Shown here: positions 5,000-26,208 of the stretch, piece by piece
Position numbering within the stretch: the stretch's first letter is position 1
Layout of the letters: each line of letters starts with the position of its first letter
Notes under the pieces: model-generated
What the model was told of the DNA's origin: nothing
Seen by the model: only the letters and a program-made list of their open reading frames with translations
Databases searched by the model: none
Program-made: the position numbers and the translations under genes
Assembly (NCBI GenBank): GCA_030679975.1
Contig: JAUXSL010000101.1
Coordinates: 1 to 33,832 of the forward strand
Length of the DNA: 33,832 nucleotides
Direction of reading: 5' to 3'
Origin: Actinomycetota bacterium
GTDB lineage: Bacteria; Actinomycetota; Aquicultoria; CAJVYJ01; JAUVQD01

Positions 5000-6432
5000 G
5001 CTTTTTGAACAGTTTCCGGTTCAGGCTCGCCCATTAAGTATTTATGGATATCGTTGGCGGCCTTGCGCCCGGCGCCCATGGCCAGAATGACCGTTGCCGA
5101 ACCGGTAACGATGTCACCGCCGGCGTAGACACCCGGACGGCTGGTACGGCCGGTTTCCTCATCGGCGATAATATAGCCGCGCTGGGTCAGCTCAAGGTCG
5201 CGGGTGCTTCGCGGCACCAACGGGTTGGCGCCCGTCCCGATGGCCATGATAACGATATCCGCCGGGACCTCGAATTCCGAGCCCGCTATCGGCACGGGGC
5301 GGCGGCGACCTGAATCGTCAGGTTCGCCCAGCTCCATTTTGACGCACTCTATCGCTTTGGCCCAACCGTCTTCCCCAACGATGCGTATCGGGCTGGTAAG
5401 CATCTCAAAGCGGATACCTTCTTCTTTAGCGTGGTGGACTTCCTCTCCCCGGGCCGGAAGTTCCGTCTCGCTGCGACGATAGATGATCGTGGCCTCTTTA
5501 GCGCCCAGGCGCAGAGCGGTGCGCACTGAATCCATGGCGACATTGCCGCCGCCGACGACCGCGACCCGGTCCCCGACCTTTATCGGTGTATCGTATTCAG
5601 GGAAAGTGTAAGCTTTCATCAAGTTGGTGCGGGTCAGGAATTCGTTGGCCGAATAGACCCCATTTAGATTCTCGCCTTCAATGCCCATGAAATTCGGCAA
5701 CCCGGCGCCGGTCGCGATGTAGCAGGCGTCATATTCTTCCATAAGCTCGTCGACGGTCATCAGCTTGCCGACGACGGAGTTGGTGCGGATAACGACCCCC
5801 ATGTCGGCCAAACCGGCTATCTCGCCGGCGACCATCTTCTTGGGCAGCCGGAATTCGGGGATGCCATAGAGCAGGACGCCGCCGGGTTCATGCAAAGCTT
5901 CAAATATTGTCACCTGGTGACCGAGCTGAGCTAAGTCGCTGGCGCATGTGACGCCGGACGGACCGCTGCCGATTATCGCGACTTTCTTGCCGGTCGATGG
6001 GGCTATTTTTGGTTTGAGTCTATGGCCGTGCTCGCGCTCCCAGTCGGCGGCGAACCGCTCCAAGCGGCCGATCGCCACAGGTTCGAACTTCTTGCCGACA
6101 ACGCAGGCCTTCTCGCATTGATCTTCCTGCGGACAGACCCGCCCGCAGACCGCGGGCAAAATATTTGTCTCTTTTATCTTGTTGATGGCTGATTGAAAAT
6201 CTTGCGCTTGAATATACGCGATAAAATCTTTGATAGGCACGTTGACCGGACACCCCTTAACGCACGGGGGCCGGGCGCAGCCTATACACCGCTCGGCTTC
6301 GAGTAAAGCTTGTTCAACTGAGTAGCCCAGCGACACCTCGTTGAAGTTTTTGCCTCGCTCCTTTGGGTCTTGCTCCGGAATCGGGGTCCGGTTAGGTATT
6401 AGCTTAGGTTTCTTGCGCTCTTCATCAGTCAC
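4996..6432 (-). CDS. nfnB: NADPH-dependent glutamate synthase small-subunit-like / NfnB-like oxidoreductase
   Basis: 478 aa; Cys-rich N-terminal Fe-S region [19 protein letters not shown], two FAD/NAD(P) Rossmann motifs; adjacent to the NfnA-like gene. Confidence 0.88.
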
Positions 6433-6435
6433 TGT

Positions 6436-7284
6436 TTAAGCCTCCGTGAGAATATCTGGATGGCGGGCCTTCCAGGCTTCGAAAGATTCTTTTTCTTCGC
6501 CCAGATACATTTTTTGGCGGCTCATCAATAGGTCCCAGTCGACCAAATGCCCGTCGAAGTCGGGGCCGTCCGTACAGGCGAATCTTGTCTCCCCGCCCAC
6601 CGACACCCGGCAGGCGCCGCACATGCCGCTGCCGTCGACCATAATGGGATTCAAACTCACCATCGTTTTAACGCCGAAGTTCTTCGTCGTCAAACAGACG
6701 AATTTCATCATGATCGCCGGACCGACAGCGACGACCAGATTGGTGTCGCCTTTTTCAAGCTCTTGTTCAAGGGCGACGGTGACGACGCCCTTGACGCCTT
6801 TGCTGCCGTCATCGGTCGTCACCAGCACCTCGTCGCAGACTTCGCCCATCTCTTTTTCATAAATAAGCAGGTCCGCGCTACGGGCGCCCATTACGCAGAC
6901 GACTTTGTTGCCGGCCGCCTTAAAGGCCCGGGCGATCGGAAAGAGCGGCGCGACGCCGAAGCCGCCGCCGATAACGATAACTTTGCCGAGCTTCTCAATG
7001 TGAGTCGGCTGGCCCAAAGGCCCGCAGAGGTCGGAGATCTCATCGCCGGCCTTCATGCGGACGAATTCCGCGCTGGTCTTGCCGACAGCCATAACGATCA
7101 AGCTGATAGTACCTTCGTCCGGATCGATGTCCGCCAACGACAGCGGAATGCGTTCGCCGTGATCGTGCAGGCGGATGATGACGAATTGGCCCGGCTGCGC
7201 TTTACGCGAGATCTGCGGGGCATCGATTTTGAAGTAAAAAACGTCCGGGGGACGGATCAATCTCTTTTCAAGTATCTTGGCCAA
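6436..7284 (-). CDS. nfnA: Sulfide dehydrogenase / ferredoxin-NADP reductase FAD/NAD-binding subunit (NfnA/SudB-like)
   Basis: 282 aa; RIPLSLADID flavin region, GGGFGVAPLFPIA, MVDGSGMCGACRVSVGGE [2Fe-2S] Cys motif. Confidence 0.88.
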   Translation of the reverse strand: MAKILEKRLIRPPDVFYFKIDAPQISRKAQPGQFVIIRLHDHGERIPLSLADIDPDEGTISLIVMAVGKTSAEFVRMKAGDEISDLCGPLGQPTHIEKLGKVIVIGGGFGVAPLFPIARAFKAAGNKVVCVMGARSADLLIYEKEMGEVCDEVLVTTDDGSKGVKGVVTVALEQELEKGDTNLVVAVGPAIMMKFVCLTTKNFGVKTMVSLNPIMVDGSGMCGACRVSVGGETRFACTDGPDFDGHLVDWDLLMSRQKMYLGEEKESFEAWKARHPDILTEA

Positions 7285-7375
7285 GTCTCATTTCACCTCT
7301 TAAATTAGGATAAAAAAAAATAAGCTAGAGGTTAATTAAATCAATATCGCGCCGACTTGGCAAGGCAAGCTTGGC

Positions 7376-7615
7376 TCAAGCCAACCTTCTTATATAGACC
7401 TTATACTCGCCGCCAGAACCTTCGACGCCTAAATATTCGTTTCCAGTCGCGCGACACCAAGCCGGCATGTCCTCGATTATCCCCTCGTCGGTCGATAGGA
7501 CCTCGAGCACCTGCCCGACTTGCATCTCCTTGATCTTCGCCGCGGTCTTGACGATCGGCATCGGGCAGAGAAGCCCGAAACAGTCTAAACCGGCGTCCGC
7601 TTTTATGGTTTCCAT
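7376..7615 (-). CDS. tusA: TusA-family sulfurtransferase
   Basis: METIKADAGLDCFGLLCPMPIVKTAAKIKEMQVGQVLEVLSTDEG...; start shortened relative to the ORF track to METIKA. Confidence 0.88.
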   Translation of the reverse strand: METIKADAGLDCFGLLCPMPIVKTAAKIKEMQVGQVLEVLSTDEGIIEDMPAWCRATGNEYLGVEGSGGEYKVYIRRLA

Positions 7616-7625
7616 ATTCTCTCCT

Positions 7626-8153
7626 CTAAATGAATAAGTTGACGCTGCTTTCCTGCGCTTCCGCCAAATATGTGACGACGCCGGCAAAGCTGTCGATCTC
7701 CGGCCGCAGGGCTTCTTTTTCGATGCCCATGATACCCATGGTGATAGTGCAGGCCACAAACTTTATCCCCAGCTCTTTTCCGAGGACCATCATCTCGTCG
7801 ACGCTGGGCATCTTATGTTCGCGCATCAGTTTTTTCATCATCCAGGTGCCCATACCGTGCATGTGGAACTTGGATAGCGGCAAGCGGTCGGTCCCGCCTT
7901 TATTCATCCAGCCCAACATCTTCTTCATCCAGCCTTTTGCGGTATTCCCGGCATCGTTTTTCTTTAAGACGTTCAGCCCCCAGAACGTGAAAAAGAGAGT
8001 GGCGTCCATTCCCATCGACCGGGCACCTGTCGCGATATTGAACGCCGCCAGAACCTTGTCCAACTCGCCGCTGAAGACGATGATCGTCACCTTGTTCTTC
8101 GTCTTCCGCTCTTTCAGTCTCTCCAGTTCGTCTGCGGCTTCAACGTGTTCCAT
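7626..8153 (-). CDS. DsrE/DsrF/DrsH-like family protein
   Basis: 175 aa; IIVFSGELDKVLAAFNIATGARSMGMDATLFFTFWGLNVLKK and C-terminal FVACTITMGIMGIEKEALRPEI. Confidence 0.85.
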   Translation of the reverse strand: MEHVEAADELERLKERKTKNKVTIIVFSGELDKVLAAFNIATGARSMGMDATLFFTFWGLNVLKKNDAGNTAKGWMKKMLGWMNKGGTDRLPLSKFHMHGMGTWMMKKLMREHKMPSVDEMMVLGKELGIKFVACTITMGIMGIEKEALRPEIDSFAGVVTYLAEAQESSVNLFI

Positions 8154-8165
8154 ATAATAACCTCC

Positions 8166-9332
8166 CTAGCCGGCTTCGCCGGTGAATGGGCTCATCGCCC
8201 GCAGCCTCGCGACAATGGGCGGTAAGACCTCGATAACATAATCTACGTCGGCTTCGTCATTCTCTTTCCCGAAGCTAAATAATAACGAGCCGTGGATCTT
8301 TTCGGGCGGCACGCCCATAGCTGCCAACACATGCGACGCCTTCAATGCCCGTGAAGTGCAAGCCGATCCGCTGGCCGCGGCCACGCCCGCCATATCCAGC
8401 ATTATCAGCATCGATTCACCTTCAATATATTCTATCCCAATGTGGGCGTTTCCCGGCAGTCTAAGGGTTGGATGGCCGTTCAATCTGGTGTGCTCCATGG
8501 CTCCAAGCAGACCGGCTACCAACCGGTCGCGCAACGGAGCGATTTTCCCGGCCCAGGCTCCCATCTCGGCCCCGGCCAGTTCGGCGGCTTTACCCATGCC
8601 GATGATCCCGGCGACGTTTTCAGTCCCCGCTCGCCGTCCCTCTTCCTGGATGCCGCCGTCGATCAGAGGTGTGACCCGCACTCCGTGACGCACGTAAAGG
8701 GCGGCCGCTCCTTTGGGTCCATAGAATTGATTGGCGGCCAAACTGAGCGCATCGACCCCGAGTTCATCGATGTTCACGGGGATCGTCCCCGCCGAGGCGA
8801 CGGCGTCCGTGTGAAAAACTATTCCCAGCGCCCTGACCGGCTCGGCTATCCGCGCGATCGGCTGGATGGTCCCGACCTCACTGTTGGCGTGCATTATCGA
8901 GACGAGCACCGTATCATCCCGCAGAGCGGCAAGAATATCCGCCGGGTCGACCAGGCCGTTCTCGTCGACTGGGACCAGCGTCACTTCCCAGCCGGCCGTT
9001 TCCAGTCTCTTGGCCGCTTGGAGAACCGAAAAATGCTCTATTGCCGAGATAACGATATGCTTACCCTTCTTAGCCCGCGCGGCGGCTAGCCCTTTGATCG
9101 CTAGATTATTCGATTCGCTGCCGCTGGATGTGAAGATCACCTCTTCAGGCCGCGCTCCAATTAAGGCCGCGACCTTGGCTCTAGCCTCGTTTACATCTTC
9201 CTTGGCCGCCTCGCCCCACTGATGGAGGCTGGCGGGGTTACCATAATTCTCGGATAAATAGGGGACCATGGCCTCAACGACACGGGGGTCGGTCTTAGTA
9301 GCCGCGGCATTATCCAGATAAACTTTTCTCAT
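8166..9332 (-). CDS. nifS: Cysteine desulfurase (NifS/IscS class V aminotransferase)
   Basis: MRKVYLDNAAATKTDPRVVEAM...; GSESNNLAIKG, HTDAVA, SGSACTS motifs; GGAGG RBS upstream of ATG at 9332. Confidence 0.94.
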   Translation of the reverse strand: MRKVYLDNAAATKTDPRVVEAMVPYLSENYGNPASLHQWGEAAKEDVNEARAKVAALIGARPEEVIFTSSGSESNNLAIKGLAAARAKKGKHIVISAIEHFSVLQAAKRLETAGWEVTLVPVDENGLVDPADILAALRDDTVLVSIMHANSEVGTIQPIARIAEPVRALGIVFHTDAVASAGTIPVNIDELGVDALSLAANQFYGPKGAAALYVRHGVRVTPLIDGGIQEEGRRAGTENVAGIIGMGKAAELAGAEMGAWAGKIAPLRDRLVAGLLGAMEHTRLNGHPTLRLPGNAHIGIEYIEGESMLIMLDMAGVAAASGSACTSRALKASHVLAAMGVPPEKIHGSLLFSFGKENDEADVDYVIEVLPPIVARLRAMSPFTGEAG

Positions 9333-14013: not shown

Positions 14014-14086
14014 GCCCTCGTAGCTCAGGGGATAGAGCACAGGTTTCCTAAACCTGGTGTCGCATGTTCGATTCATGCCGGGGGCA
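14014..14086 (+). tRNA. tRNA-Arg (anticodon CCT)
   Basis: GCCCTCG acceptor pairs with CGGGGGC; anticodon arm CAGGT-TTCCTAA-ACCTG; T-arm GCATG-TTCGATT-CATGC; discriminator A. Confidence 0.95.
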
Positions 14087-14088
14087 CG
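14043..14088 (+). repeat. attL: 46-bp direct repeat (tRNA anticodon loop to 3' end)
   Basis: GTTTCCTAAACCTGGTGTCGCATGTTCGATTCATGCCGGGGGCACG, identical to 24415-24460. Confidence 0.95.
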
Positions 14089-14115
14089 TACATTTACCAG
14101 GGAAGATACAACAAG

Positions 14116-14149
14116 AAGGCCCCTACGGTTTGCCGCCGAGGGGCCTTTT
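14116..14149. terminator. Rho-independent terminator-like hairpin beside tRNA-Arg/attL
   Basis: AAGGCCCCT-acggtttgccgccg-AGGGGCCTTTT. Confidence 0.8.
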
Positions 14150-14170
14150 GCTAATGGATTGCTAATGGAA
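14149..14170 (+). repeat. Putative integrase arm-type tandem site (left)
   Basis: TGCTAATGGATTGCTAATGGAA; near-identical tandem at 24279-24300. Confidence 0.65.
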
Positions 14171-14176
14171 ATATTT

Positions 14177-15274
14177 TCAGACGGCTTCACACACCCGGTC
14201 AGCGCCAAAGATGGCCGCTTCCAATTCAGCCGCCGCCGCGCTTTCTGTCTCTGGCAACAGGTGGCCGTAAGTATCGGCGGTTATCTGTATCGAGCTATGT
14301 CCTAATTGGCGCTGTATGACCTTTAGAGGCACGTTGCGGCTGATCGCCAGGGCTGCGTAACTATGTCTTAGATCATGGAACCTGACGCGCCTTAGCCCGG
14401 CTCTGGTAAGCGTCGGCCAGAAGATGCGCCTAAGTAGATTAGGGCCGTCTATCGGAGTTCCCACTTCACTTGGAAATATCAGGCCAAGCGGATTATCCGG
14501 GCCGTCTACCAGTAGCCGGGTTTGTAGTTCCCTTAAAGCTTTTATTAATGTGTCGGAGATCGACACCCGCCGGACGCTATGAGCGCTTTTAGTCTCTACT
14601 AGGATTGTCCCCCTGACCGAGCGCCTAACGCTGATCGTCTTAGCGTTAAAGTCTATGTCTTCCCACTTTAGGCCTAAGAGTTCCCCGCGTCTTAGTCCCG
14701 TCATACAGGCCGTTAAGAGTAGGGCATAATGGCGCTGATCGGTTGCGGCCAAGAGCTTGTTTATCTCCGCCGGGTTCAAGAAGTCCATTTCCACCTTGGG
14801 GACGCGTGGCTTTTTGACGGCTTTAGCCGGGTCTTTGCTTAAGTACCCCCACTGCTCAGCGGTCTTAAAGATGGTCTTTAAGACGGTCAGGCTATGCGCT
14901 ACCGTCCGGGGGCTAAGGCAAGAGGCCGACAGCTCGGAGACAAACAGATCAATAATTTCCGTAGAGATTGCCCTTGTCTGTAAGTGTCCGAAAGCCGGTT
15001 TTAGGCGGCGCTCAATCTGGACGCGGTAAAAATCCAAAGTGGACGGCTTGATAGCGGCCTCAGACTTCTTTAACCACTTGTCGCATAGATCGCGGAATAA
15101 AATGTCTTTCGGCGCTTGATATTCCCCCCGGTGAACCTGGCCCATAATCTGAGTCAAGGCCCGCTCGGCCTCTTTTTTATTCGGCCCGATGGTTTTCCAT
15201 TTCTGCTTACCGTCCACATAGTATACGACCGCATAATTCCCGCTTGCCCTCTTGACGATTGAACCGCTTGCCAT
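14177..15274 (-). CDS. int: Tyrosine recombinase / phage-type site-specific integrase
   Basis: 365 aa; TGLRRGELLGLKWEDID, RFHDLRHSYAALAI, QLGHSSIQITADTYGHL. Confidence 0.95.
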   Translation of the reverse strand: MASGSIVKRASGNYAVVYYVDGKQKWKTIGPNKKEAERALTQIMGQVHRGEYQAPKDILFRDLCDKWLKKSEAAIKPSTLDFYRVQIERRLKPAFGHLQTRAISTEIIDLFVSELSASCLSPRTVAHSLTVLKTIFKTAEQWGYLSKDPAKAVKKPRVPKVEMDFLNPAEINKLLAATDQRHYALLLTACMTGLRRGELLGLKWEDIDFNAKTISVRRSVRGTILVETKSAHSVRRVSISDTLIKALRELQTRLLVDGPDNPLGLIFPSEVGTPIDGPNLLRRIFWPTLTRAGLRRVRFHDLRHSYAALAISRNVPLKVIQRQLGHSSIQITADTYGHLLPETESAAAAELEAAIFGADRVCEAV

Positions 15275-15277
15275 GAT

Positions 15278-16375
15278 TTACCTGCCTTTCTGGTTTTTCC
15301 GTCTATGATAGTGAGCGCTTTTACGGCATGGCTCAGAACAATAATCTTGCCCCCTGCCCCTTGTTGCCGTTGGATAAAAATATTTGGCTCTGTTGCACCT
15401 TTCATATTTACAGCGTTTCGGAAACTTTACCCCGGTTGCTTCCAGGTGGAATTGCACATACATAGCGCCAAGAAGTGTTTGTGGAGTCAGGTGGCAAACT
15501 ATTTCATCCCAATCCCCTCTTTTCCCGGCGGTTAGTTGAAGCATTGGCCTTAAATTATGCTCTGCTAGCTCGTTGTTTATTAGATCACAAAAAAGAATAC
15601 GTGCAGCTTGCTTGTAATGGTAAAAACCAGTTTTTTTCCACCTTCTAAAGAATTGCGGATGTTGCAGATTATTGTCTGCGATCGAATATAAGTTAAAGTG
15701 CCCGGCGGTCGGCCAGAATTTTGAAGGCCATTTAATATAGCGTTCAATAAGATGCTTCTCGTTTCTTTTGAGATATTGAAGGCTGTTTCTTTGAGCGTCC
15801 AAAAAGTCATCGCTTGCATTAATGAAATAAGCGCCGAAGTCATCATCCCAAAATATGCGCTTTCTTAGATAGGGTTCATCTTCAAGATGTTCCCACAGAG
15901 CAAGAAGGAACTGCATTTTGTCGATTTCTTCTTGCCATTGCCGGCCACTTTCACATAGTGCCCAAATAGTTGACCAGGACAGGTCCCTTTCGCTTGGCTC
16001 AGTGTGCAGTGGCCCTATAAACGGGGCTAGCTTGTCATTTATCTTCACGCAAGGTTCACGTCCTATGCCAAGCATTCCATACTGGTTAACAAAGGCCAAT
16101 ATCTCGCTTAATTCCCCAGAAAGGTCGGCAAATGTTCTATACAGCGGAAAATCAAGATCGAATGGCGAGTAGAAACGCGGTTGTTCGTTTTTCTCTAATC
16201 GGTTCTTTCCTTCCGTTAAGAAAGGAATTAGGCACTTAGCGACTAAAAAAGGTGGCTTCTCTTCGCCCGCCGATAGAATATCGTCTCTCCATTCATGCCC
16301 GTCAGCCTCTACGCCCCAGCTAAACGTATTTAGACTATATTTAGACGTAATAAAGCCCTGTTTTGTCTCATTCAT
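15278..16375 (-). CDS. Uncharacterised protein with C-terminal CGNR-like zinc finger
   Basis: 365 aa; C-terminus KRCKYERCNRAKYFYPTATRGRGQDYCSEPCRKSAHYHRRKNQ; stops 3 bp before the integrase start. Confidence 0.7.
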   Translation of the reverse strand: MNETKQGFITSKYSLNTFSWGVEADGHEWRDDILSAGEEKPPFLVAKCLIPFLTEGKNRLEKNEQPRFYSPFDLDFPLYRTFADLSGELSEILAFVNQYGMLGIGREPCVKINDKLAPFIGPLHTEPSERDLSWSTIWALCESGRQWQEEIDKMQFLLALWEHLEDEPYLRKRIFWDDDFGAYFINASDDFLDAQRNSLQYLKRNEKHLIERYIKWPSKFWPTAGHFNLYSIADNNLQHPQFFRRWKKTGFYHYKQAARILFCDLINNELAEHNLRPMLQLTAGKRGDWDEIVCHLTPQTLLGAMYVQFHLEATGVKFPKRCKYERCNRAKYFYPTATRGRGQDYCSEPCRKSAHYHRRKNQKGR

Positions 16376-16396
16376 AAGCTAAAATTAAATTAAAAG

Positions 16397-16416
16397 TTAG
16401 CGAAAGTCAACTAGGA
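16397..16416 (+). promoter_or_regulatory. Candidate operator in the divergent CGNR/XRE promoter
   Basis: TTAGCGAAAGTCAACTAGGA resembles TTAGCGAAAACCGACTAAGA at 24376-24395 next to attR; also inverted repeat GCTAA/TTAGC at 16378-16401. Confidence 0.5.
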
Positions 16417-16426
16417 GGTTACTTAT

Positions 16427-16615
16427 ATGTCTAAGCTGCGAGAATTTAGACAAGCAAAAGGACTAACTCAAACTAAGTTAGCACGCAAAATCAAAATGGC
16501 CAATAGTTGCGTGTCTGCCGTAGAAACCGGCAACCGCCAACCTTGGCCGAATTTCCAAAAGCGCGTTTCTAAAGCGCTTGGCGTACCGGAATCTGAGATT
16601 TTCTGCGATGAATGA
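16427..16615 (+). CDS. XRE/Cro-CI family repressor
   Basis: 62 aa; LREFRQAKGLTQTKLARKIKMANSCVSAVETGNRQPW; AGGAGG RBS. Confidence 0.9.
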   Translation: MSKLREFRQAKGLTQTKLARKIKMANSCVSAVETGNRQPWPNFQKRVSKALGVPESEIFCDE

Positions 16616-16793
16616 GCGGCTTTTTACGCTAGACCAGGTGGCCGAGCGTTGGCAAGTCTCGAAGGGATTGCTATATCGAATGACTGAGGACGGACGCCTT
16701 GACCGCGTGAAAATCGGCAAGTATGTGCGCATACCGCAATCGGCGATTGAGGCTTTCGAGAATCAAACTAACGGCAACGGTGACGGCCAATGA
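16608..16793 (+). CDS. Excisionase-like / MerR-type helix-turn-helix protein
   Basis: MNERLFTLDQVAERWQVSKGLLYRMTEDGRLDRVKIGKYVRIPQSAIEAFENQ; overlaps the upstream stop. Confidence 0.88.
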   Translation: MNERLFTLDQVAERWQVSKGLLYRMTEDGRLDRVKIGKYVRIPQSAIEAFENQTNGNGDGQ

Positions 16794-16927
16794 CTAGGCT
16801 TGTTTCCTGGTTTTTTGGCCGTCTACCAAGATGGTTAGCTGATCGCTTTGTCTGGCGGCGGCACGAAAAACAAATTCAGACCCGCAACGCTGATTTTTTA
16901 GCTGAGCAGAAGGAGCGCCGCCCATGA
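16790..16927 (+). CDS. Small 45-aa ORF, amphipathic N-terminus, translationally coupled
   Basis: MTRLVSWFFGRLPRWLADRFVWRRHEKQIQTRNADFLAEQKERRP; ATGA overlap with both neighbours; not in the supplied ORF track. Confidence 0.6.
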   Translation: MTRLVSWFFGRLPRWLADRFVWRRHEKQIQTRNADFLAEQKERRP

Positions 16928-18798
16928 CACCCCTGCAAAACGTCCTATCCCGGCTTCAAGGCGTCAAACAGCGCGGCAAGGAATACTCGGCCAATTGTCC
17001 CGGCCCGAATCACAAGCGCGGCGACAAGCGGCCCAGCCTTAATGTCAGCGAAGGCGAAGATGGCCGGGCTTTGGTTAAATGTCAAACCGGCTGCGAGACA
17101 GCCGATATTTTAACGCCTATCGGCTTAGAGCTTAAAGACTTGTTCCCCAAAGCCAAGAGCGACCGGATAGAGATAGCGGCCTATCGCTATGACGATGCAA
17201 GCGGCAATCCCTCTTATGAAACCGTTCGCTTTCAGCCCAAAGAGTTTGGCGTTAAAACAATGGACGGCAAGTGGGGACTTAACGGACAAAAGAAGATTCT
17301 TTACCGCTTGCCACAGCTCATAAAGGCCGACAAAGAGCGCCGGGTTTTTATCGTGGAAGGTGAAAAACACGTCGATAAACTCATTGAGCTGGGCCTTGTC
17401 GCCACCTGTAACCCTTTTGGGGCGCTCAAGTGGCTGCCTGAATTTTCAGAGGATTTAAGAGATCGGCATATCGTCATATTGCCGGACGCCGACCCGCCGG
17501 AAAAGAATTTCCCGCAAGGCAAAGGCAAGGCACACGCCGAGCAGGTGGCCGAGTTGTCCAACGGCATAGCCGCCAGCATTAAGGTTATCGAGCTTCCCGG
17601 CCTTCCCGAAAAAGGCGACATAATGGACTGGTTGGCCGCCGGACATACCAAAGCGGAATTGATCGAGATCGTCAAAGAAGCGCCACTATGGGAACCGAAC
17701 GCGGAGCCGGAAGCGCCACAGACGGAACCCTTTGCTTTGCCGCTGGTTGATTTTATGGCCGGGCCGACGGAAGTCCCTTGGTTGTGGGATGAGATCATAG
17801 CCGCGCCGTCCCTTGCTATCCTGGCCGCCAAACCTAAGTTTGGAAAAACGCTTTTGAGCTTCAATCTGGCAATTGCGGCCAGCCGTGGCCGTGACTACCT
17901 AGGCCGGGCCGTTAAGCAAACCAATGTTTTAATCGTTCAGCTCGAAGACCCGCCTATCATCATTCGCAACCGGCTCTTGACTATGGGGGCCGAAGGCGCA
18001 GGAATCTTTATTCGGGCCGGGTTGCCCATGATTAAAGAGGACTGGCAGGCTTTGCGCTTGTTCATTGTCGAAAATCAGATCGGCTTAGCGATTATCGACC
18101 CCTTTATTTTCGCCATTAGAGGCAACGAACAAGACGCGACAGCAACCGGCACGTTTTTGCGGGAAATCCGGGAACTGATATTCGCAACCGATTGCAGCGT
18201 TTTGCTTGTCCACCACCACCGAAAGGGCGGCGGCGAACACGGCGACGCTATCCGGGGAAGCTCTGCAATTCTTGGAGCCGTGGACGTGGCGCTTGAGATC
18301 GTCCGGGAAGATGAAAACGACCCGGCCGCTACACTTAAGATAACGTCGAGGTTTGCCAGCATTGAATCTGAAACGCTATCGCTTGACGTTGAATCCCTAA
18401 CTTGGCGAAGTATGGGGAGCGCAAAAGAGTACAAGAAGACAAGGCGCGAAAATGAGATCATGACGGCGATTGAAGGCGAAGGCGAGGCCGACATACCGAC
18501 GCTAAGCGATGCCCTCAACCTTGACCCTTCAAACTTCCGAGCCGACCTAAAGCGCCTTGTTGCCGATGGCCTAGTTAATGAGCGTAAAGAGGCGACAAAA
18601 GGACGGCCGAAATACTGGTATTCCCTTGCCGCCGATAAGTCCCTTAAAAGTATGCCTGTCGCCGAAAACTTTGATAGTCCTGACCTGCCAAAAGATACCC
18701 AAACAGACCTTTTAAGCGAGATTCCTAACCCTGGGGTAAGTGAAACCGCCGAAAAGCCTGACGACGATTTAACCGGCTTTAGCGAGGTGGGAATATGA
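16924..18798 (+). CDS. Primase/RepA-type helicase fusion (element replication protein)
   Basis: 624 aa; N-terminal Zn-finger-like CPGPNHKRGDKRPSLNVSEG...CQTGC, TOPRIM-like VFIVEGEKHVDKL...ILPDAD, Walker A AAKPKFGKT, LAIIDPF, VLLVHHHRKGG. Confidence 0.88.
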   Translation: MTPLQNVLSRLQGVKQRGKEYSANCPGPNHKRGDKRPSLNVSEGEDGRALVKCQTGCETADILTPIGLELKDLFPKAKSDRIEIAAYRYDDASGNPSYETVRFQPKEFGVKTMDGKWGLNGQKKILYRLPQLIKADKERRVFIVEGEKHVDKLIELGLVATCNPFGALKWLPEFSEDLRDRHIVILPDADPPEKNFPQGKGKAHAEQVAELSNGIAASIKVIELPGLPEKGDIMDWLAAGHTKAELIEIVKEAPLWEPNAEPEAPQTEPFALPLVDFMAGPTEVPWLWDEIIAAPSLAILAAKPKFGKTLLSFNLAIAASRGRDYLGRAVKQTNVLIVQLEDPPIIIRNRLLTMGAEGAGIFIRAGLPMIKEDWQALRLFIVENQIGLAIIDPFIFAIRGNEQDATATGTFLREIRELIFATDCSVLLVHHHRKGGGEHGDAIRGSSAILGAVDVALEIVREDENDPAATLKITSRFASIESETLSLDVESLTWRSMGSAKEYKKTRRENEIMTAIEGEGEADIPTLSDALNLDPSNFRADLKRLVADGLVNERKEATKGRPKYWYSLAADKSLKSMPVAENFDSPDLPKDTQTDLLSEIPNPGVSETAEKPDDDLTGFSEVGI

Positions 18799-19205
18799 GC
18801 GCCGAAACCTTAATCGCGGAACTCGAAAGCCAAGGAATCATGTTAGCGATAAAGGACGGCAAGCTGTTAAGCAAACCAGCAATCCCCGCCGAGCTTATCC
18901 CGACGCTGAAAGAAAACAAGGCCGAGATCGTCCGGGCGCTTAAATGGCGGCAAAACGTCGAGCGCCTTAAGGCGACCTTTGGGGCCGCGGCGCTGACCGG
19001 CCCGGAACTTCTAAAGAGTGAATATAACTTCCACTTGGCGGAACTCCGGCGCGTGGAATCCTATCTTGACGACAAAGGAATACCGCAAGATCAGCGGGAA
19101 GCGCTGATACCTGAGCTTCAACGCCAAAGCCGTAAGCTGTCCGAGCTTCTTAATTGCATTGGCGAATATACCAGCCAAGAGGTAAGCGCGGGATTTTCGG
19201 TATGA
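18795..19205 (+). CDS. TubC_N-like docking-domain protein (element-encoded)
   Basis: 136 aa; N-terminus ETLIAELESQGIMLAIKDGKLLSKPAIPAELIPTLKENKAEIVRALK resembles the TubC N-terminal domain. Confidence 0.6.
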   Translation: MSAETLIAELESQGIMLAIKDGKLLSKPAIPAELIPTLKENKAEIVRALKWRQNVERLKATFGAAALTGPELLKSEYNFHLAELRRVESYLDDKGIPQDQREALIPELQRQSRKLSELLNCIGEYTSQEVSAGFSV

Positions 19206-19357
19206 CCAGCCCGAAACTGATCGAGATCAAAATACCCAAGGCCGTGCTTTTCTTGACACAAGCCGAGTATTGCCGGGCCTTAAAGCGTGGCAAGGCCATT
19301 AAGAGGCGACGTAACTTTGATGAAAGAAACAACGTGGAAAGGAAATCCCATGAGTGA
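19202..19357 (+). CDS. Small basic 51-aa protein (hypothetical)
   Basis: MTSPKLIEIKIPKAVLFLTQAEYCRALKRGKAIKRRRNFDERNNVERKSHE; ATGA overlap upstream, 8-nt overlap downstream. Confidence 0.55.
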   Translation: MTSPKLIEIKIPKAVLFLTQAEYCRALKRGKAIKRRRNFDERNNVERKSHE

Positions 19358-19883
19358 ACAGGATAAAAAGGAAATTCGGCATAGGAACGGGGCCAAGTTA
19401 TGCCGTGCCACTTCAAAGCGAACTAAAGAGCCGTGCGGGGCGGTTGCTATGGCCGGTAAGGACGTTTGCTATCATCATGGCGGCAAGGCCGGAAGGCCGA
19501 TTAAACACGGTCTGTACTCTAAGAGGTTTGCCAACCAGCCAACAATTGCCGAGCGCATTGAACAGTTAAAGAACGACCCGGAACTAACGAACATAGCATC
19601 TCACCTAGCCGCCGTTGTTGCCGTCTTGGAAAAGGTGATCGAGGGGTTAACCCCCGACCATCAGGACTATGAAAAGACGGTTGAAACCTTAAGCCTGGTG
19701 GTTGACCGAATAGCCAAGATCAAGGAAAGAGAACACAAGATTCAGATCGGGTATTATCTGAAACCCGAGCAGGTGGAACTGTTAAAGGTTGCGCTTGCTG
19801 GTTGTATTAAGAAAACGTGTGCCAACTGTCCGAGCCTGCCCAAGCTCGCTGATGATATAAGCAAGATTCCGATGCCGGATTAG
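19350..19883 (+). CDS. HGG-motif protein (HGGXTG / small-terminase-like DNA-binding family)
   Basis: AKLCRATSKRTKEPCGAVAMAGKDVCYHHGGKAGRPIKHGLYSKRF; later C-x2-C-type region KKTCANCPSLPKL. Confidence 0.7.
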   Translation: MSEQDKKEIRHRNGAKLCRATSKRTKEPCGAVAMAGKDVCYHHGGKAGRPIKHGLYSKRFANQPTIAERIEQLKNDPELTNIASHLAAVVAVLEKVIEGLTPDHQDYEKTVETLSLVVDRIAKIKEREHKIQIGYYLKPEQVELLKVALAGCIKKTCANCPSLPKLADDISKIPMPD

Positions 19884-19889
19884 TAAGCG

Positions 19890-19907
19890 CCGGTCTTCCG
19901 AGACCGG
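19890..19907. terminator. Stem-loop after the replication operon
   Basis: CCGGTCT-TCCG-AGACCGG perfect 7-bp stem with tetraloop; no strong U-tract. Confidence 0.5.
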
Positions 19908-20180
19908 GGAAAAATTTCCAGGCGGCTCATTCCTTGGCGGGTCGTTATTCGCTTAGCCGTCATTAGCAAGGTGCTTATCTACCAGCAGCTTTATGGCCTT
20001 AATGGGTTTGTTTAACCTGGTGTCGCTTTGGGCTAAATGTTTGCTGGTCTTGCCGTCTCTGCTTTGCGTTCTTGCCCTGCTCTACCCTTAACGGAGATCT
20101 GAAAATGCCTTAGATTAGCGCTCAGCGCTTTGTTTACCAGGGGTTTTGTCGAATAAAGATAACTTGGCCTGACCGGGCTG

Positions 20181-20582
20181 TTAAGGATTCTTGTCTGCCT
20201 TGTTTCGCCTCAATAGATACCAGATACCGATAAAGGCGGCGGCTGATGTTAGGTAAAGGTAAAAGAGGCGCACGCCTTGGCTAAAGATCGCGGGATACAC
20301 ATATTTGCCTGTCAACCAGGAAACCGACAGCTTGTATACCATCGTGGCCGCCAGCGCTGAGAACAAGAGGGCGATTAGAAGCGGGATAAATAAGGACATT
20401 CTTTTTAGTTCTTGCCGTTTCCGAACAAGCAGGTAGATGAATGTTCCCAGCAGCAGCAAAGGAATAGCTATTCCAAGATAGTTAAGTATTAAGGTTTGGT
20501 TGCTTGGCTTCGGCTTTACTGCCTTATATGTAGCGAGCGGTTTCCAGTCACGCTTATATTGTTCCCATTCACTTTGTGCCAT
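20181..20582 (-). CDS. Membrane protein, about three TM segments (hypothetical)
   Basis: 133 aa; hydrophobic LILNYLGIAIPLLLLGTFIYLLV, LFIPLLIALLFSALAATMVY, LYLTSAAAFIGIWYLL. Confidence 0.6.
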   Translation of the reverse strand: MAQSEWEQYKRDWKPLATYKAVKPKPSNQTLILNYLGIAIPLLLLGTFIYLLVRKRQELKRMSLFIPLLIALLFSALAATMVYKLSVSWLTGKYVYPAIFSQGVRLFYLYLTSAAAFIGIWYLLRRNKADKNP

Positions 20583-20727
20583 TTGCCCCCCGCTTGCGAT
20601 GCACCGTTTTCAGTCTAACCGTGTACCGCCCCCCGGGGCAACCCCCACCCCCCCGGTGGTCTCAAGTAACTTTAATAGCGTCTCTGGCTAGATTATAAAT
20701 TTAGCTCTCGGCCAAAAGTGCCTTAGG

Positions 20728-20763
20728 GAGGTTATCTCAATTTTTGTGAAAATAAATTTTCCA
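20728..20763 (-). promoter_or_regulatory. Copy 1 of shared AT-rich upstream box
   Basis: Minus strand TGGAAAATTTATTTTCACAAAAATTGAGATAACCTC, 181 bp upstream of the 20582 start. Confidence 0.4.
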
Positions 20764-20821
20764 TAGCCGAACGATTTAGAAATCTTCGGTAGTGGGTTCA
20801 GTTGAATTGGAAAATTTGCAA

Positions 20822-21301
20822 TTACGGAGCCGCAGCCACTGCAGGCTTGGACTTCTTTTTCTTTTTGGGGTCACGCTTCTTATGCGGCGTAATTTTCATT
20901 TGTTGCATTGGATGGTCAAAGGCAACCCAAAAGTAAGCGAAAAAATCATTGCGTCCGAGAAGGTTCTGCCCTATCTCGCGCCCTTGTTTGTCACGTAGCT
21001 CCCTGAAACAAGGATTCTTACATACAATGTCAATGCCCTCGAATTCAATAGTGATCTGCGGGCCAACCCAATAATCAAAGGGGCCGCCAGCGCCGACCCC
21101 TTTCACTTGTTTCAAGCTAGTCCTCTTGATGCCACATGCCTCTAATAACTCTATATCAAACGACGAAGCATCGGCCCCAGAGTCTACAAGTGCGCGCGTG
21201 CGCATTATTACCCCAGGCAAAATCGTCAAGTTCACCTTGACTAAAGGCAATAATATGGACTGTCCGTTAGGAAAAGTAAATTTTTGGTAGGTATGGAACA
21301 C
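20822..21301 (-). CDS. Retropepsin-like aspartic protease domain protein
   Basis: 159 aa from GTG; TRALVDSGADASSFDIELLEACG catalytic motif and QNLLGRNDFFAYFWVAFD flap/second-motif region; Lys/Ala-rich tail. Confidence 0.82.
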   Translation of the reverse strand: MFHTYQKFTFPNGQSILLPLVKVNLTILPGVIMRTRALVDSGADASSFDIELLEACGIKRTSLKQVKGVGAGGPFDYWVGPQITIEFEGIDIVCKNPCFRELRDKQGREIGQNLLGRNDFFAYFWVAFDHPMQQMKITPHKKRDPKKKKKSKPAVAAAP

Positions 21302-21302
21302 C

Positions 21303-21497
21303 CTAGAAGAAGAAGCAACCGTCCTGGGCGGGGACAGGGAACACTACAGGGTCTTTAACGTCATTAGCGTGTGCTTGTTCCACTGCCTCTTGCACTGTGT
21401 CGCCACAACCTACGACGCGATCATCATCAGTAGTCGCAACCCATTTGCCAGCGCAATTACCAAGTTCCTTCGCGAACTCTTCTTGCCTGTGTGTCAT
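21303..21497 (-). CDS. DUF5678-like small protein
   Basis: MTHRQEEFAKELGNCAGKWVATTDDDRVVGCGDTVQEAVEQAHANDVKDPVVFPVPAQDGCFFF; stop separated by 1 nt from the retropepsin GTG. Confidence 0.7.
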   Translation of the reverse strand: MTHRQEEFAKELGNCAGKWVATTDDDRVVGCGDTVQEAVEQAHANDVKDPVVFPVPAQDGCFFF

Positions 21498-21684
21498 ATG
21501 ACTACCCCCTTTAGACAATTATTCCCTCAGTCTGACTTCTTTAAAGATATTTATCGGCAGCTGAGGGATAACTCCTGAACACATTGCTAATATTGTTCCC
21601 AAGTATGCGGTCTGTCAATAGCAAGCATATGTTCGCAGGTGCTGCGTAAGGCAATCAGCGGTCAACGCTACCAAGCCAATAGGG

Positions 21685-21715
21685 GGCGCGTTTTTTTATG
21701 AAAATATTTTTGCCA
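21685..21715 (-). promoter_or_regulatory. Copy 2 of shared AT-rich upstream box
   Basis: Minus strand TGGCAAAAATATTTTCATAAAAAAACGCGCC, 218 bp upstream of the DUF5678-like start. Confidence 0.4.
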
Positions 21716-21747
21716 TCTTCAATTGACTGAGCCAATTTCAATCCGAT

Positions 21748-22554
21748 TCAGACGCTTGTGGTATCTTCTATTCTTTCATTTGCTAAAACTATCTCTTTGA
21801 TTTCGGCAAGCTGCTCAGCAATCTCCTGCAACTCAGGCGAGTGTTTTTGGTCTTCGGTGATTAGAAAGGCAGCAATGTTTGCGGTAAGCAAGCTGAAAAA
21901 TGCGATACCTGAAATCATTAAGAAAACCGCCACGCCGCGCCCGGCGGGACTCCGGGGAAAAGCATCGCCATAGCCGACGGTCGTAATGGTCGAAATCGCC
22001 CACCAGAGACCGTCGGCCATCGTGCTGATTGTTCTTTGGCCCTCTGGCACTGCCTTTTCAAACTCAACAACTAAGCCCCCTGCTACCAAAATCAAGATAA
22101 GCGTGACAGCCAGTGCATAATGCAGATGATGGCGTCGCAACATCAGCGTTAGTTCGTGGAGCGCCTCTGAGAAGAACGCGCCCAATCGCGCCAACCTGAT
22201 AAGCCGCAGCATCCGCGCCGACCGGACGATTCTAAGCGGCCTCAAAAATGGCAGAACGACAATTAGAAGATCGGGGATGTTGCCCTTGAAGAATTTCCAG
22301 CGACTAGGAGCCAGGGCAATCTTGACGCCATATTCAAGAGCAAAAGCGGCCCAAATAAACCATGAGGCGAATTCAAAACTGTTCTCGGTTGGCTTGGGTA
22401 GCTTGACGGCAATAGGTATTACGACCATCGGAATCATAAGCACTGCCAAGACCAACATGGGTATCTCGGTGGCTTCGCTCACTTTATCGAAAAGTACTTG
22501 GCGACCGACCTGATCTGCAGGCTTCTTACTTAACATCATAAGCCCTAAGGCCAC
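21748..22554 (-). CDS. Voltage-gated potassium channel-like protein (6TM)
   Basis: 268 aa; S4-like RPLRIVRSARMLRLIRLARL, selectivity filter TTVGYGDAFP; GTG start. Confidence 0.9.
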   Translation of the reverse strand: MALGLMMLSKKPADQVGRQVLFDKVSEATEIPMLVLAVLMIPMVVIPIAVKLPKPTENSFEFASWFIWAAFALEYGVKIALAPSRWKFFKGNIPDLLIVVLPFLRPLRIVRSARMLRLIRLARLGAFFSEALHELTLMLRRHHLHYALAVTLILILVAGGLVVEFEKAVPEGQRTISTMADGLWWAISTITTVGYGDAFPRSPAGRGVAVFLMISGIAFFSLLTANIAAFLITEDQKHSPELQEIAEQLAEIKEIVLANERIEDTTSV

Positions 22555-22694
22555 CTAAAAATCTTGCTCACAATTCGGCGGCCCAGCCATTTATTCTTGG
22601 CCCGACGCGCCATTTTTTTAGGATTGCCTGACGCCAGGACTTCAACGTCTCGACTGATCCGGGCGATTTTATACAGCCAACTTGTAAGTTTCAT
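22545..22694 (-). CDS. Small basic 49-aa conserved hypothetical protein
   Basis: MKLTSWLYKIARISRDVEVLASGNPKKMARRAKNKWLGRRIVSKIFRWP; overlaps the channel gene start. Confidence 0.65.
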   Translation of the reverse strand: MKLTSWLYKIARISRDVEVLASGNPKKMARRAKNKWLGRRIVSKIFRWP

Positions 22695-22698
22695 GTTT

Positions 22699-23421
22699 CT
22701 ACCATCCACACTGGCCGCATTGACACGGCGTGTATCCTTGAGCAATTGCCTGGCTCTTGCTGATTGCGAATTTGCTTCTGCTTAAGTAGCTATGGCAGCC
22801 GTCCGGGTGCGCGCGGTGATACCTCTCGCCCGTCTTAGTTATGTAGACCGTTTCGTCATTAGCGGGCGGCGGTGGTGGAGGCGGTGCATAGACGGGCGCA
22901 GGCGGGGGAGGTTCTTTAGTACCGTCCGCAATGATCTTAGGTGTTGGCTGAATGGAGACAACTTCATTCTCAAGTGTCCGAGTTACTTCCACGTCGTCTT
23001 TAAGCTGCACCTTGTAGACAAACGTCTTTACGCCGGTCGCCCCTTCTTGGCGCACTTGCGATTGACCTTTCTCAAGGTTTGGGTCTTGCGTTCGTTCTTC
23101 GACAAAAGGAACTGATTCAGTTACTTCAATCGTTTTGTAAGTTATCTTCGGTGCAGTCTTTTTCGGCATGGCTTGAGGCGCGGTGGATGTAGATGGAATA
23201 GGTTCCGGTAAATCATTTGCTGGCGGTGGCGAAGTTTGGGCCGCCGCAAGCCCGATGAACACAAAGGCGGCAACAATAGTCACGACCCACTTAACGGGGT
23301 TTGGCCAATCGGTTTTTGTCCAAGCGTAAATCGGGATGATGATCGGCCAGAAGAAGATTAGCGTGAGTGTTTTCCAGTACCACTTAAGCGGATTGAACCA
23401 GTTCCAGAATGTTTCGGCCAT
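22699..23421 (-). CDS. G5-domain membrane protein with proline-rich linker and C-terminal Cys/His zinc-binding-like domain
   Basis: 240 aa; TM segments, IEVTESVPFVEERTQDPNLEKGQSQVRQEGATGVKTFVYKVQLKDDVEVTRTLENEVVSIQPTPKIIADGT, C-terminus YHRAHPDGCHSYLSRSKFAISKSQAIAQGYTPCQCGQC. Confidence 0.8.
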   Translation of the reverse strand: MAETFWNWFNPLKWYWKTLTLIFFWPIIIPIYAWTKTDWPNPVKWVVTIVAAFVFIGLAAAQTSPPPANDLPEPIPSTSTAPQAMPKKTAPKITYKTIEVTESVPFVEERTQDPNLEKGQSQVRQEGATGVKTFVYKVQLKDDVEVTRTLENEVVSIQPTPKIIADGTKEPPPPAPVYAPPPPPPPANDETVYITKTGERYHRAHPDGCHSYLSRSKFAISKSQAIAQGYTPCQCGQCGW

Positions 23422-23573
23422 GGCTGCCCCTCTTTACAGTTATTTAGGAGGACTGCTTATTTTCGTTGAAGGCTAAGCGGGTGGTCATAAGCTTTATTTA
23501 ATTCTAACCGTTTGACGCATGTAGACAAGAGAACAGTTGTTCGTTCCTGCAGACTAAGCTTTAGAAAGGTTAA

Positions 23574-23603
23574 CCGCTTTTTTTATGAAAGGTATTTTTG
23601 CCA
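23574..23603 (-). promoter_or_regulatory. Copy 3 of shared AT-rich upstream box
   Basis: Minus strand TGGCAAAAATACCTTTCATAAAAAAAGCGG, 182 bp upstream of the 23421 start. Confidence 0.4.
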
Positions 23604-23682
23604 ACGCCGCCTTTAATGTTTAGTAAAAGCGCTTGGCATTTTTTTGGTCGCAGGAAGAAAAAGTTAAGGTACAATTGCCTTT

Positions 23683-24267
23683 ATGAAAAGACGATACCTT
23701 TTTGTACTGCTGGGCCTAATTTTGCTTTTGTTCATCGGTATAACCTTTGGCGTCAACGAATATCAAACCCGTCAAAGCTTTAAGCTGCTTGCTAAAACTG
23801 TGGGGACACTTTCGATAATAGACGCAAAGGCTAACAAGTTAATGCTGACGGACATAACACAGACTGAAAATATCCCCGCAACCAATGGGCCAACGCCTGA
23901 ACTTATTGAGCGCGCTATGCTCATAAAAGAACGGGGCCGGAAGAATGTCGAAGAAGTGGAGGCCGAGCTGCAAGCTGAAGCTTATGAGCAGCTAACGATC
24001 CAGTTACTCAAATTGTCCGACCAAACGAAAAACGCACACATCACAAGCGCCTTCTTGCCCACTAAGCGAAACATCCTATTAGTATTGAATACAAAATCGC
24101 GGGCATTAGCAGCGCTTGTCAGCACTAAGCGTGACGAAAAAAGCAAATCAGCTACTAGTTATGATGCCTTAAAGGCTAAAGCAGCATGGGAAGCAGCCAA
24201 CGAAAGCTTGAGCGCTTATGCGCAATCGCATGGTTATTCTGCTTGGTATGATTCTTTAATCAAGTAG
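23683..24267 (+). CDS. Hypothetical membrane-anchored/secreted protein
   Basis: 194 aa; N-terminal TM MKRRYLFVLLGLILLLFIGITFGV; TACAAT -10-like box seven nt before ATG. Confidence 0.6.
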   Translation: MKRRYLFVLLGLILLLFIGITFGVNEYQTRQSFKLLAKTVGTLSIIDAKANKLMLTDITQTENIPATNGPTPELIERAMLIKERGRKNVEEVEAELQAEAYEQLTIQLLKLSDQTKNAHITSAFLPTKRNILLVLNTKSRALAALVSTKRDEKSKSATSYDALKAKAAWEAANESLSAYAQSHGYSAWYDSLIK

Positions 24268-24278
24268 CTTCAAGGCGC

Positions 24279-24300
24279 TGCTAATGTACTGCTAATGGAA
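24279..24300 (+). repeat. Putative integrase arm-type tandem site (right)
   Basis: TGCTAATGTACTGCTAATGGAA, counterpart of 14149-14170. Confidence 0.65.
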
Positions 24301-24414
24301 TTAGCCACAATCGGGATTAAAGCCGACTAATACCGTCTAATTGCTTAGCGCTGTTTGTGCTGGTACTAGCTATAATTAGCGAAAACCGACTAAGAGCAAA
24401 TAATACCCTAAAGC

Positions 24415-24460
24415 GTTTCCTAAACCTGGTGTCGCATGTTCGATTCATGCCGGGGGCACG
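24415..24460 (+). repeat. attR1: second copy of the 46-bp tRNA-Arg 3' repeat
   Basis: 46/46 identical to 14043-14088. Confidence 0.95.
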
Positions 24461-24493
24461 CAGTTCAGAAGGGTTGTAAGGTAATACGTGGCC

Positions 24494-24892
24494 TTAGGCC
24501 GCTCGGTGCGGCTTCATCGTCACTTTCCCGCCGGGGGTAACAGTGAAAGCAACTCCTAAAACCTCGGTCAGCTTAAGCAAGGTCGTCAGTGTCGGCATCT
24601 GCCGGCCGCTTTCAAGTCTGGCTATGGCCGACTGTTTTAGACCCATGCGCTCAGCCAGTTGCGCTTGTGTCAACTTTTCCCGGAGCCTGGCGCCGATTAG
24701 TGCGCTCCTGAATTCATATTCCGGTTGCAGCTTCTCATACTCCTCGCGGAATTTCGGGTCTTTCACTTGTTCGTCTAAGTATTCGTTAACGTCCATCACA
24801 ACCCTTGCCCGCTCAGATTGATTCAAGCCATCAAGAAACTGCTTGACTGGAATCTTGCCGCTGTCCGTCTCATAGAAAACAACTGCCCACAT
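24494..24892 (-). CDS. HigB'-HigA chimera: truncated HigB-like toxin N-terminus fused to intact HigA-like XRE antitoxin
   Basis: MWAVVFYETDSGKIPVKQFLDGLNQSERARV (toxin-like) then MDVNEYLDEQVKDPKFREEYEKLQPEYEFRSALIGARLREKLTQAQLAERMGLKQSAIARLESGRQMPTLTTLLKLTEVLG (antitoxin); one open frame. Confidence 0.75.
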   Translation of the reverse strand: MWAVVFYETDSGKIPVKQFLDGLNQSERARVVMDVNEYLDEQVKDPKFREEYEKLQPEYEFRSALIGARLREKLTQAQLAERMGLKQSAIARLESGRQMPTLTTLLKLTEVLGVAFTVTPGGKVTMKPHRAA

Positions 24893-24900
24893 GCAAGAGG

Positions 24901-24922
24901 AATATAACATAGACGTTATATT
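24901..24922. promoter_or_regulatory. Palindromic operator upstream of the HigB'-HigA ORF
   Basis: AATATAAC-atagac-GTTATATT, perfect 8-bp arms, 8 bp upstream of the ATG at 24892. Confidence 0.7.
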
Positions 24923-25068
24923 CTTATCAAGCCTCCGCAATTGTCCGCGATTGGACAATCGGCCGCCGGGTGGCTACAGGCCGTACTCCTACTTGTATAA
25001 AACAGCGGCCAAGCTTTGAGGGCGCGGCCATGTCCTAAAAATCTCAAGTTCGCTTATTCTCCTTGCAA

Positions 25069-25088
25069 AACTGCACACAACTGCACAC
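25069..25088 (+). repeat. Tandem 10-bp repeat, possible arm site of the earlier element
   Basis: ACTGCACACAACTGCACACA, two perfect copies, ~150 bp before the third att copy. Confidence 0.5.
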
Positions 25089-25239
25089 AAAACACCCCAC
25101 AACACGGGTTAACACCGACTATAGCCGACTAAGTAATTAACTTAACGCTCGGCTTGTATGTGCTGGTCATCGCCGGTGACAGCTACAACTGGCGAGAATC
25201 AACTAAGACCAAATAAGACCACAAAATAGGCCTTTAAGC

Positions 25240-25281
25240 GTTTCCTAAACCTGGTGTCGCATGTTCGATTCATGCCGGGGG
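25240..25281 (+). repeat. attR2: third copy of the tRNA-Arg 3' repeat (42 bp)
   Basis: GTTTCCTAAACCTGGTGTCGCATGTTCGATTCATGCCGGGGG identical to the first 42 bp of attL/attR1. Confidence 0.93.
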
Positions 25282-25322
25282 GGTTATATTCTAAGGACTG
25301 GAAAAGGGGTAAACAACTGAGC

Positions 25323-26003
25323 ATGGGAAAGAAGCTTCTCTTATTGATCCTGGTCTTGTTGGCCCTCAACGGCTCGGGCACTGTCGCCGCCAAGGCTCAG
25401 ACGGGGACCGAGGGCGCCAAAAGAAAACAGATTTGGATGATGGGCCGCTCTGTGATGGCCGGCTGGTTCGCGCACATGGGTTCGGACGGCATCCGGCCGG
25501 TCAAGCGGGGCCGGTTTGTCTTTACCTATAAGGCGATCGCGCCGCCGCCCAAGATAGTAAATAGCGTCCGCAAACACCTGGCCGCCGCGGAGCGCCGGCC
25601 GATGGTCTTCTTTAAGCTCTGCTTTGTCGATTTCGAAGGCGGCACTCAGGAGGACGCGCAGGCCAACCTCACCCGCAATAAAACTTACATTCGCCGGGCC
25701 TACCGGGTGGTTGTGACCACATATCATAAGCGGCTGATCATCGGAAACGCTTTGCCGAAAGTAGCGGGGGAAACGGATACATGGCTGGTCTGGAACCATC
25801 AACAATACAATGCCTGGCTCAACGGTTTCGCCGCCGGCCACCCGGGGCAGGTCTATATCTTCAGCATGTACGACGTCTTGAGGGACGGTAGCGGCAACCT
25901 GCGCGCGGATTACGCCACCTCCGCGAGTGATTCCCACCCTAACGACGCGGGCTACTCGGCTTTGGACGCCGTCTACCTGCCCTTCTTAAGATCTAACTTT
26001 TAA
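25323..26003 (+). CDS. Secreted SGNH-hydrolase-like protein
   Basis: Signal peptide MGKKLLLLILVLLALNGSGTVAAKA; WMMGRSVMAGWFAHMG block and SDSHPNDAGY C-terminal D-x2-H-type motif. Confidence 0.65.
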   Translation: MGKKLLLLILVLLALNGSGTVAAKAQTGTEGAKRKQIWMMGRSVMAGWFAHMGSDGIRPVKRGRFVFTYKAIAPPPKIVNSVRKHLAAAERRPMVFFKLCFVDFEGGTQEDAQANLTRNKTYIRRAYRVVVTTYHKRLIIGNALPKVAGETDTWLVWNHQQYNAWLNGFAAGHPGQVYIFSMYDVLRDGSGNLRADYATSASDSHPNDAGYSALDAVYLPFLRSNF

Positions 26004-26208
26004 GAGAGGCCCGGTTCCTGAACCAGACGTAGATGAAGTAACCGGCGGCAAAGAGAAACCCGAAGCCGAACAAAAAACTGACAGCCAGCAACGCCAACAA
26101 CTTGGGGTGCTCTTTGACCAGCGAGACCTCCCGCTCTTCCGCGGTTTTAGCGTAACCGGCCAGCTTATGTTGCGACTTGGGCCAGAAACGTAACGCTGTT
26201 GCTTTCAT
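25993..26208 (-). CDS. Small single-TM protein (hypothetical)
   Basis: 71 aa; LLALLAVSFLFGFGFLFAAGYFIYVWFRNRASLKS. Confidence 0.55.
   Translation of the reverse strand: MKATALRFWPKSQHKLAGYAKTAEEREVSLVKEHPKLLALLAVSFLFGFGFLFAAGYFIYVWFRNRASLKS

Follow-up and report, generated by a model that had tools for sequence, protein, structure and literature searches.

Apparent stacking of two related integrative elements at one tRNA-Arg gene of an uncultured Actinomycetota bacterium

The window analysed in this study, a stretch of 33,832 nucleotides from a metagenome bin of an Actinomycetota bacterium (contig JAUXSL010000101.1), contains the 3' half of a tRNA-Arg gene three times in the same orientation. 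This raises the question of how a single attachment site came to hold three copies, and whether they delimit one mobile element or two that entered one after the other.

The target tRNA gene and its core copies

ARAGORN detected one tRNA gene in the window, and a search of the bacterium's own genome for a further good match to this tRNA-Arg(CCT) gave none. The features of the site, with the 10.4-kb element next to the tRNA gene termed E1 and the 0.8-kb remnant beyond it termed E2, are:

14014-14087, plus strand: tRNA-Arg(CCT), intact, target gene (attB/attL)
14043-14088, plus strand: core copy 1, attL of E1
14114-14149, plus strand: strong hairpin with a T-run just inside E1 (-25.4 kcal/mol, z -4.4)
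24415-24460, plus strand: core copy 2, junction of E1 and E2
25240-25281, plus strand: core copy 3, attR of E2, 3' end altered (C72 lost)

Copies 1 and 2 are identical (46/46 bp). Copy 3 agrees with them over 42/42 bp and then reads GGTT where the others read CACG. Sequence matching thereby bore out the two 46-bp copies and the 42-bp copy reported in the preliminary description, and the ARAGORN prediction placed the first of them, as claimed there, inside an intact tRNA gene. In 100 shuffles the number of matches expected by chance was 0.00, and the only three strong core matches in the whole 1.76-Mb genome are those of this array. Copy 1 begins in the 5' strand of the anticodon stem and spans the anticodon loop; the crossover would have taken place in this stem-loop. 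The hairpin inside E1 probably replaces the terminator of the tRNA-Arg gene.

It might be suspected that copy 3 or the whole tandem is an artefact of assembly, as the contig comes from a draft bin of 127 contigs and the repeats measure 42-46 bp. This is barely credible, however, as each copy has flanks of its own, all three were kept apart by the assembler, and the host DNA to the left and to the right of the array finds its match in the same sister genomes.

Gene content of E1 and of the remnant E2

E1 extends from 14089 to 24414 and adjoins the tRNA gene. The preliminary description had called this integrase-bearing element the outer one, a label that has to be reversed, as it is E2 that lies outside. 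The GC content is 49% in E1 and 50% in E2, compared to 56-58% in the host flanks. The following features were assigned to E1:

14177-15274, minus strand: tyrosine integrase, 365 aa (Pfam PF00589, E 2.8e-27; PHROG integrase, 3.8e-86)
15278-16375, minus strand: 365-aa protein with a Cys-rich C-terminus, no family match
16427-16615, plus strand: XRE/Cro-type repressor, 62 aa (Pfam and PHROG profile searches)
16611-16793, plus strand: excisionase-type HTH_17 protein (TIGR01764 above cut-off; phrog_66 excisionase)
16924-18798, plus strand: primase/helicase-like protein, AAA_25, 624 aa (Pfam and PHROG profile searches)
18795-19883, plus strand: two small ORFs of 136 and 198 aa, 3' of the primase gene, the second HGGxSTG/phrog_3678-like
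19995-20026, plus strand: possible decayed fourth att fossil
20181-24267, no strand assigned: cargo, i.e. membrane protein, retropepsin-like protease, DUF5678, ion channel, G5-domain protein and membrane-anchored ORF (profile searches)
24304-24414, plus strand: right-end arm (P') with CCGACTAA-type repeats (arm alignment)

The integrase gene is directed toward the tRNA gene and ends 89 bp from it. Its residues R195, K229, H300, R303, H326 and Y336, which we take to be the catalytic residues of tyrosine recombinases, are invariant in an alignment of eight sequences. For the neighbouring 365-aa protein no family match was obtained in Pfam, PHROGs, NCBIfam or PADLOC. A weak relative of this protein (24%) is encoded beside a related integrase in a Dehalococcoidia MAG (L107).

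Judged by its predicted genes, E1 is of the small integrative element or phage satellite type. The combination of integrase, excisionase, repressor and primase in a small element would be compatible with a phage satellite or prophage, but no packaging or helper-interference gene was identified. Searches of the scanned E1 ORFs with Pfam, NCBIfam and PHROG recognised no capsid, relaxase or conjugation family, so that the relaxase or conjugation gene marking an ICE or IME was not found. With the tRNA-targeting islands of tyrosine integrases E1 has in common the integrase catalytic residues, the restored tRNA 3' end and the displaced copy at the far end; the corresponding empty site is that of a sister genus, in which a related element occupies the same tRNA gene of another genome.

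Similarity of the primase did not lead to a helper or parent of E1: the phage proteins matched at about 25-27% identity, which is too remote to name either. Against viral contigs, the sole match of the primase query was a stretch of 52 residues, and the exact core pattern had no match there.

Within E1, positions 19995-20026 agree with copy 3 and its arm at 26/32 positions in the same orientation (0/400 shuffles, Gumbel p ~5e-4). The agreement with copy 2 or with the core alone is weaker (p ~0.01), and a search for homology of the arm upstream of this stretch found none. The stretch may represent a fourth att that has decayed, or the match may be due to chance. In the former case the site might have seen three integrations: 19995-20026 would be an older boundary, E1 an integrase-replication module fused to captured cargo, and element activity would have removed chromosomal genes that once lay beside the tRNA gene. 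We consider this scenario distinctly unlikely.

E2 (24461-25239) lies in the 825-bp step between copies 2 and 3 and contains a single recognisable gene:

24494-24892, minus strand: HigB'-HigA in-frame fusion, 132 aa
25096-25239, plus strand: right-end arm (P') of E2, diverged homologue of the E1 arm (arm alignment)

Compared to the genome G031 (L170), in which HigB and HigA are encoded by separate genes, the first ~32 residues of HigB are joined in frame to HigA and the remaining ~80 HigB codons are missing, which makes it very likely that the toxin function of HigB was lost. No trace of an integrase was found in E2. This is in line with the preliminary description of the step as the residue of an insertion carrying only a HigB'-HigA chimera.

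The right arms of the two elements are homologous (~24304-24407 in E1, 25096-25222 in E2), with a local score of 44 as against shuffle maxima of 27-31. The homology covers the ~110-140 bp immediately preceding copy 3 and the ~105 bp immediately preceding copy 2; the divergent homology of the flanks noted earlier is therefore real and longer than first described. Repeats of the CCGACTAA type recur in both arms in similar form and are candidate integrase arm sites. Since the right-end arms are diverged homologues, E2 appears to represent the right-hand end of a separate element related to E1 rather than a simple duplication. A simple tandem duplication was rejected on account of the arm divergence and the unrelated rest of E2. 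Alternatively it might be that E2 is a local duplication of the right end of E1, which would account for the core and ~110-140 bp of right-end homology. We regard this as very improbable, because the homology then stops, nothing in E1 corresponds to the HigB'-HigA part of E2, and the arms have diverged strongly in spite of identical cores.

The left arm of E2 resembles neither that of E1 nor that of the decayed element in the sister genome G001 (see below), and no left arm is common to the three. For this reason, and since E2 contains no integrase trace, the case for a separate integration of E2 draws on its right arm and the cores. Like a CIME, E2 is bounded by cores on both sides (copies 2 and 3, the latter altered at its last bases) and is devoid of integration and transfer genes. 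Regarding a descent from an ICE or IME by deletion, its right arm is homologous to that of E1 and no conjugation gene was seen.

Sister genomes, related integrases and the right boundary

The site was compared among 36 genomes of the class. In G003, which belongs to the same family and another genus, the same upstream hydrolase gene and tRNA-Arg gene are present with one core copy and no element. G001, of the same genus as G003, contains a 3.43-kb decayed element at the same tRNA gene, followed by a second core copy, and to the right of this copy lies the flank that directly adjoins the tRNA gene in G003. Hence the element-free relative carries one copy rather than three, and the relative with one element carries two. 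Together they form an empty/occupied pair with the same outer flank for the tRNA-Arg site and this integrase family. The element of G001 encodes a C-terminal integrase remnant 74% identical to the E1 integrase. This value is above the 54-55% identity of the host protein neighbouring the tRNA gene between the genera, as would be expected of mobile DNA. The right arm of the G001 element showed no significant similarity to the right arms of E1 and E2. At the start of this element GC-rich inverted repeats were also seen by eye, comparable to the hairpin of E1.

Of 167 loci encoding related integrases, about 47 have an integrase gene that ends at most 400 bp from the 3' end of a tRNA gene and faces it; related integrases are located at tRNA-Gly, Ala, Val, Lys and others. 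At least one downstream copy of the tRNA tail is found within the sequence in view in 12 of these ~47 loci, including L129 (tRNA-Pro). As L129 and L130 (tRNA-Met) each show two extra tail copies, those of L130 being 95 bp apart, stacking is not unique to this tRNA-Arg gene. By eye, each of the L130 copies is then followed by terminator-like sequence, giving a very short stack. At another tRNA-Arg(CCT) gene (L059, G032:C40, ~4319-8236) the tail recurs 3.8 kb away. Between the two tails lie, by eye, genes resembling AbiEi/AbiEii and a fragment of a type I methylase gene; the E1 integrase has no match there.

Right of the array, one gene separates copy 3 from conserved host DNA:

25323-26003, plus strand: GDSL-like secreted protein, host side, absent at this place in sister genera

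From ~26008 rightward the window shares synteny with G001:C68 and G003:C220 at their phoU/pst locus. In both of these the neighbour of phoU is a CPA1-type antiporter gene (named by eye); at the corresponding place the window has, within 25282-26008, the GDSL-like gene. This antiporter gene is present in four relatives and was not found in the bacterium's own genome. Nor did searches of this genome at the DNA and protein level detect the right-flank gene of the sister genera, an ADP-ribosylglycohydrolase-like gene (named by eye) that adjoins the tRNA gene in G003. With the bin being 95.8% complete, these absences are suggestive only. Two events would explain this: a deletion of the ancestral flank reaching copy 3 or running into it, or a rearrangement of the genome at this point. 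The right end of E2 is soundly marked by copy 3, whose outer junction is nevertheless altered and not ancestral, because the copy is devoid of tRNA base C72 and its outer flank differs from that of G001 and G003.

Order of integrations and known systems

We infer, with a probability of about 0.83, that an earlier element related to E1 decayed to E2 and that E1 then entered the restored tRNA gene. According to this reading, an integrase-bearing relative of E1 entered tRNA-Arg(CCT), and its attP would have provided a replacement 3' end of the tRNA. By deletion this first element would have shrunk to the 0.8 kb of E2, keeping a core on each side, the right-end arm and HigB'-HigA. E1, with its full integrase, excisionase and replication module, would next have entered the restored tRNA gene, resulting in the arrangement tRNA/att1 - E1 - att2 - E2 - att3. 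If E1 is active at present, it may excise alone (att1 x att2) or together with E2 (att1 x att3), as in CIME accretion.

E2 would be the older element because integration into a restored tRNA gene puts the newest element next to it. The copies alone cannot fix the order, since insertion of E2 into the attR of E1 gives the same map, with cores, arms and flanks in the order observed. It might thus be that E1 came first and that E2, or a longer parent of it, later entered the attR of E1 and decayed. For tandems of functional elements, insertion into an att site of the resident is indeed regarded as the probable route (PMC5704250). The far stronger decay of E2 and the greater alteration of copy 3 compared to copies 1 and 2 nevertheless fit an older E2, and we regard arrival of E1 first as unlikely, if well worth considering; it is the decay alone that favours E2 before E1. 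A further possibility is that both elements arrived together in a composite already stacked elsewhere. CIME-ICE composites have been documented to transfer as tandems (PMC5704250), but the collections searched yielded no donor with the same E1-E2 tandem, and we judge joint arrival to be improbable. The preliminary description had taken copy 3 as an older attR rather than a product of tandem duplication: the assignment to the right end of a separate element held up, the greater age did not to the same degree, as arrival of E1 first leads to the same map.

Within the uncultured Actinomycetota lineage, the locus provides a readable small-scale case of island build-up at one tRNA gene, and an empty site, a single decayed element and a double stack are all found among related genomes. 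As the mechanism is already established, its value is that of a documented example with annotated element boundaries. Integration, decay and re-integration, i.e. CIME-type accretion, have long been known from ICEs and IMEs as well as from the Dehalococcoides ssrA islands.

For CIME and tandem accretion at tRNA 3' ends (ICESt1-type), the same three steps of integration, decay to a CIME and re-integration have been set out (PMC5704250). Here, too, a decayed, att-flanked element without integrase lies beside an intact integrase-bearing one, with a chimeric att common to both. The differences are that neither a conjugation nor a relaxase gene was recognised among the scanned E1 ORFs, that E2 comprises only 0.8 kb and that the host is an uncultured Actinomycetota bacterium. 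The Dehalococcoides ssrA islands (PMC3146451) likewise form tandems of several islands with direct repeats of the 3' end of an RNA gene, many of them without integration modules. They differ in their Ccr-like integrase (DsiB) and 20-bp ssrA repeat, in contrast to the tyrosine integrase and 46-bp tRNA-Arg repeat of the present site. The tDNA islands collected by Islander (PMC4383910) share the tyrosine integrase, the restoration of the target tRNA gene by the island and the displaced tRNA fragment at the far end; nothing differs in principle, except that the displaced fragment is doubled here.
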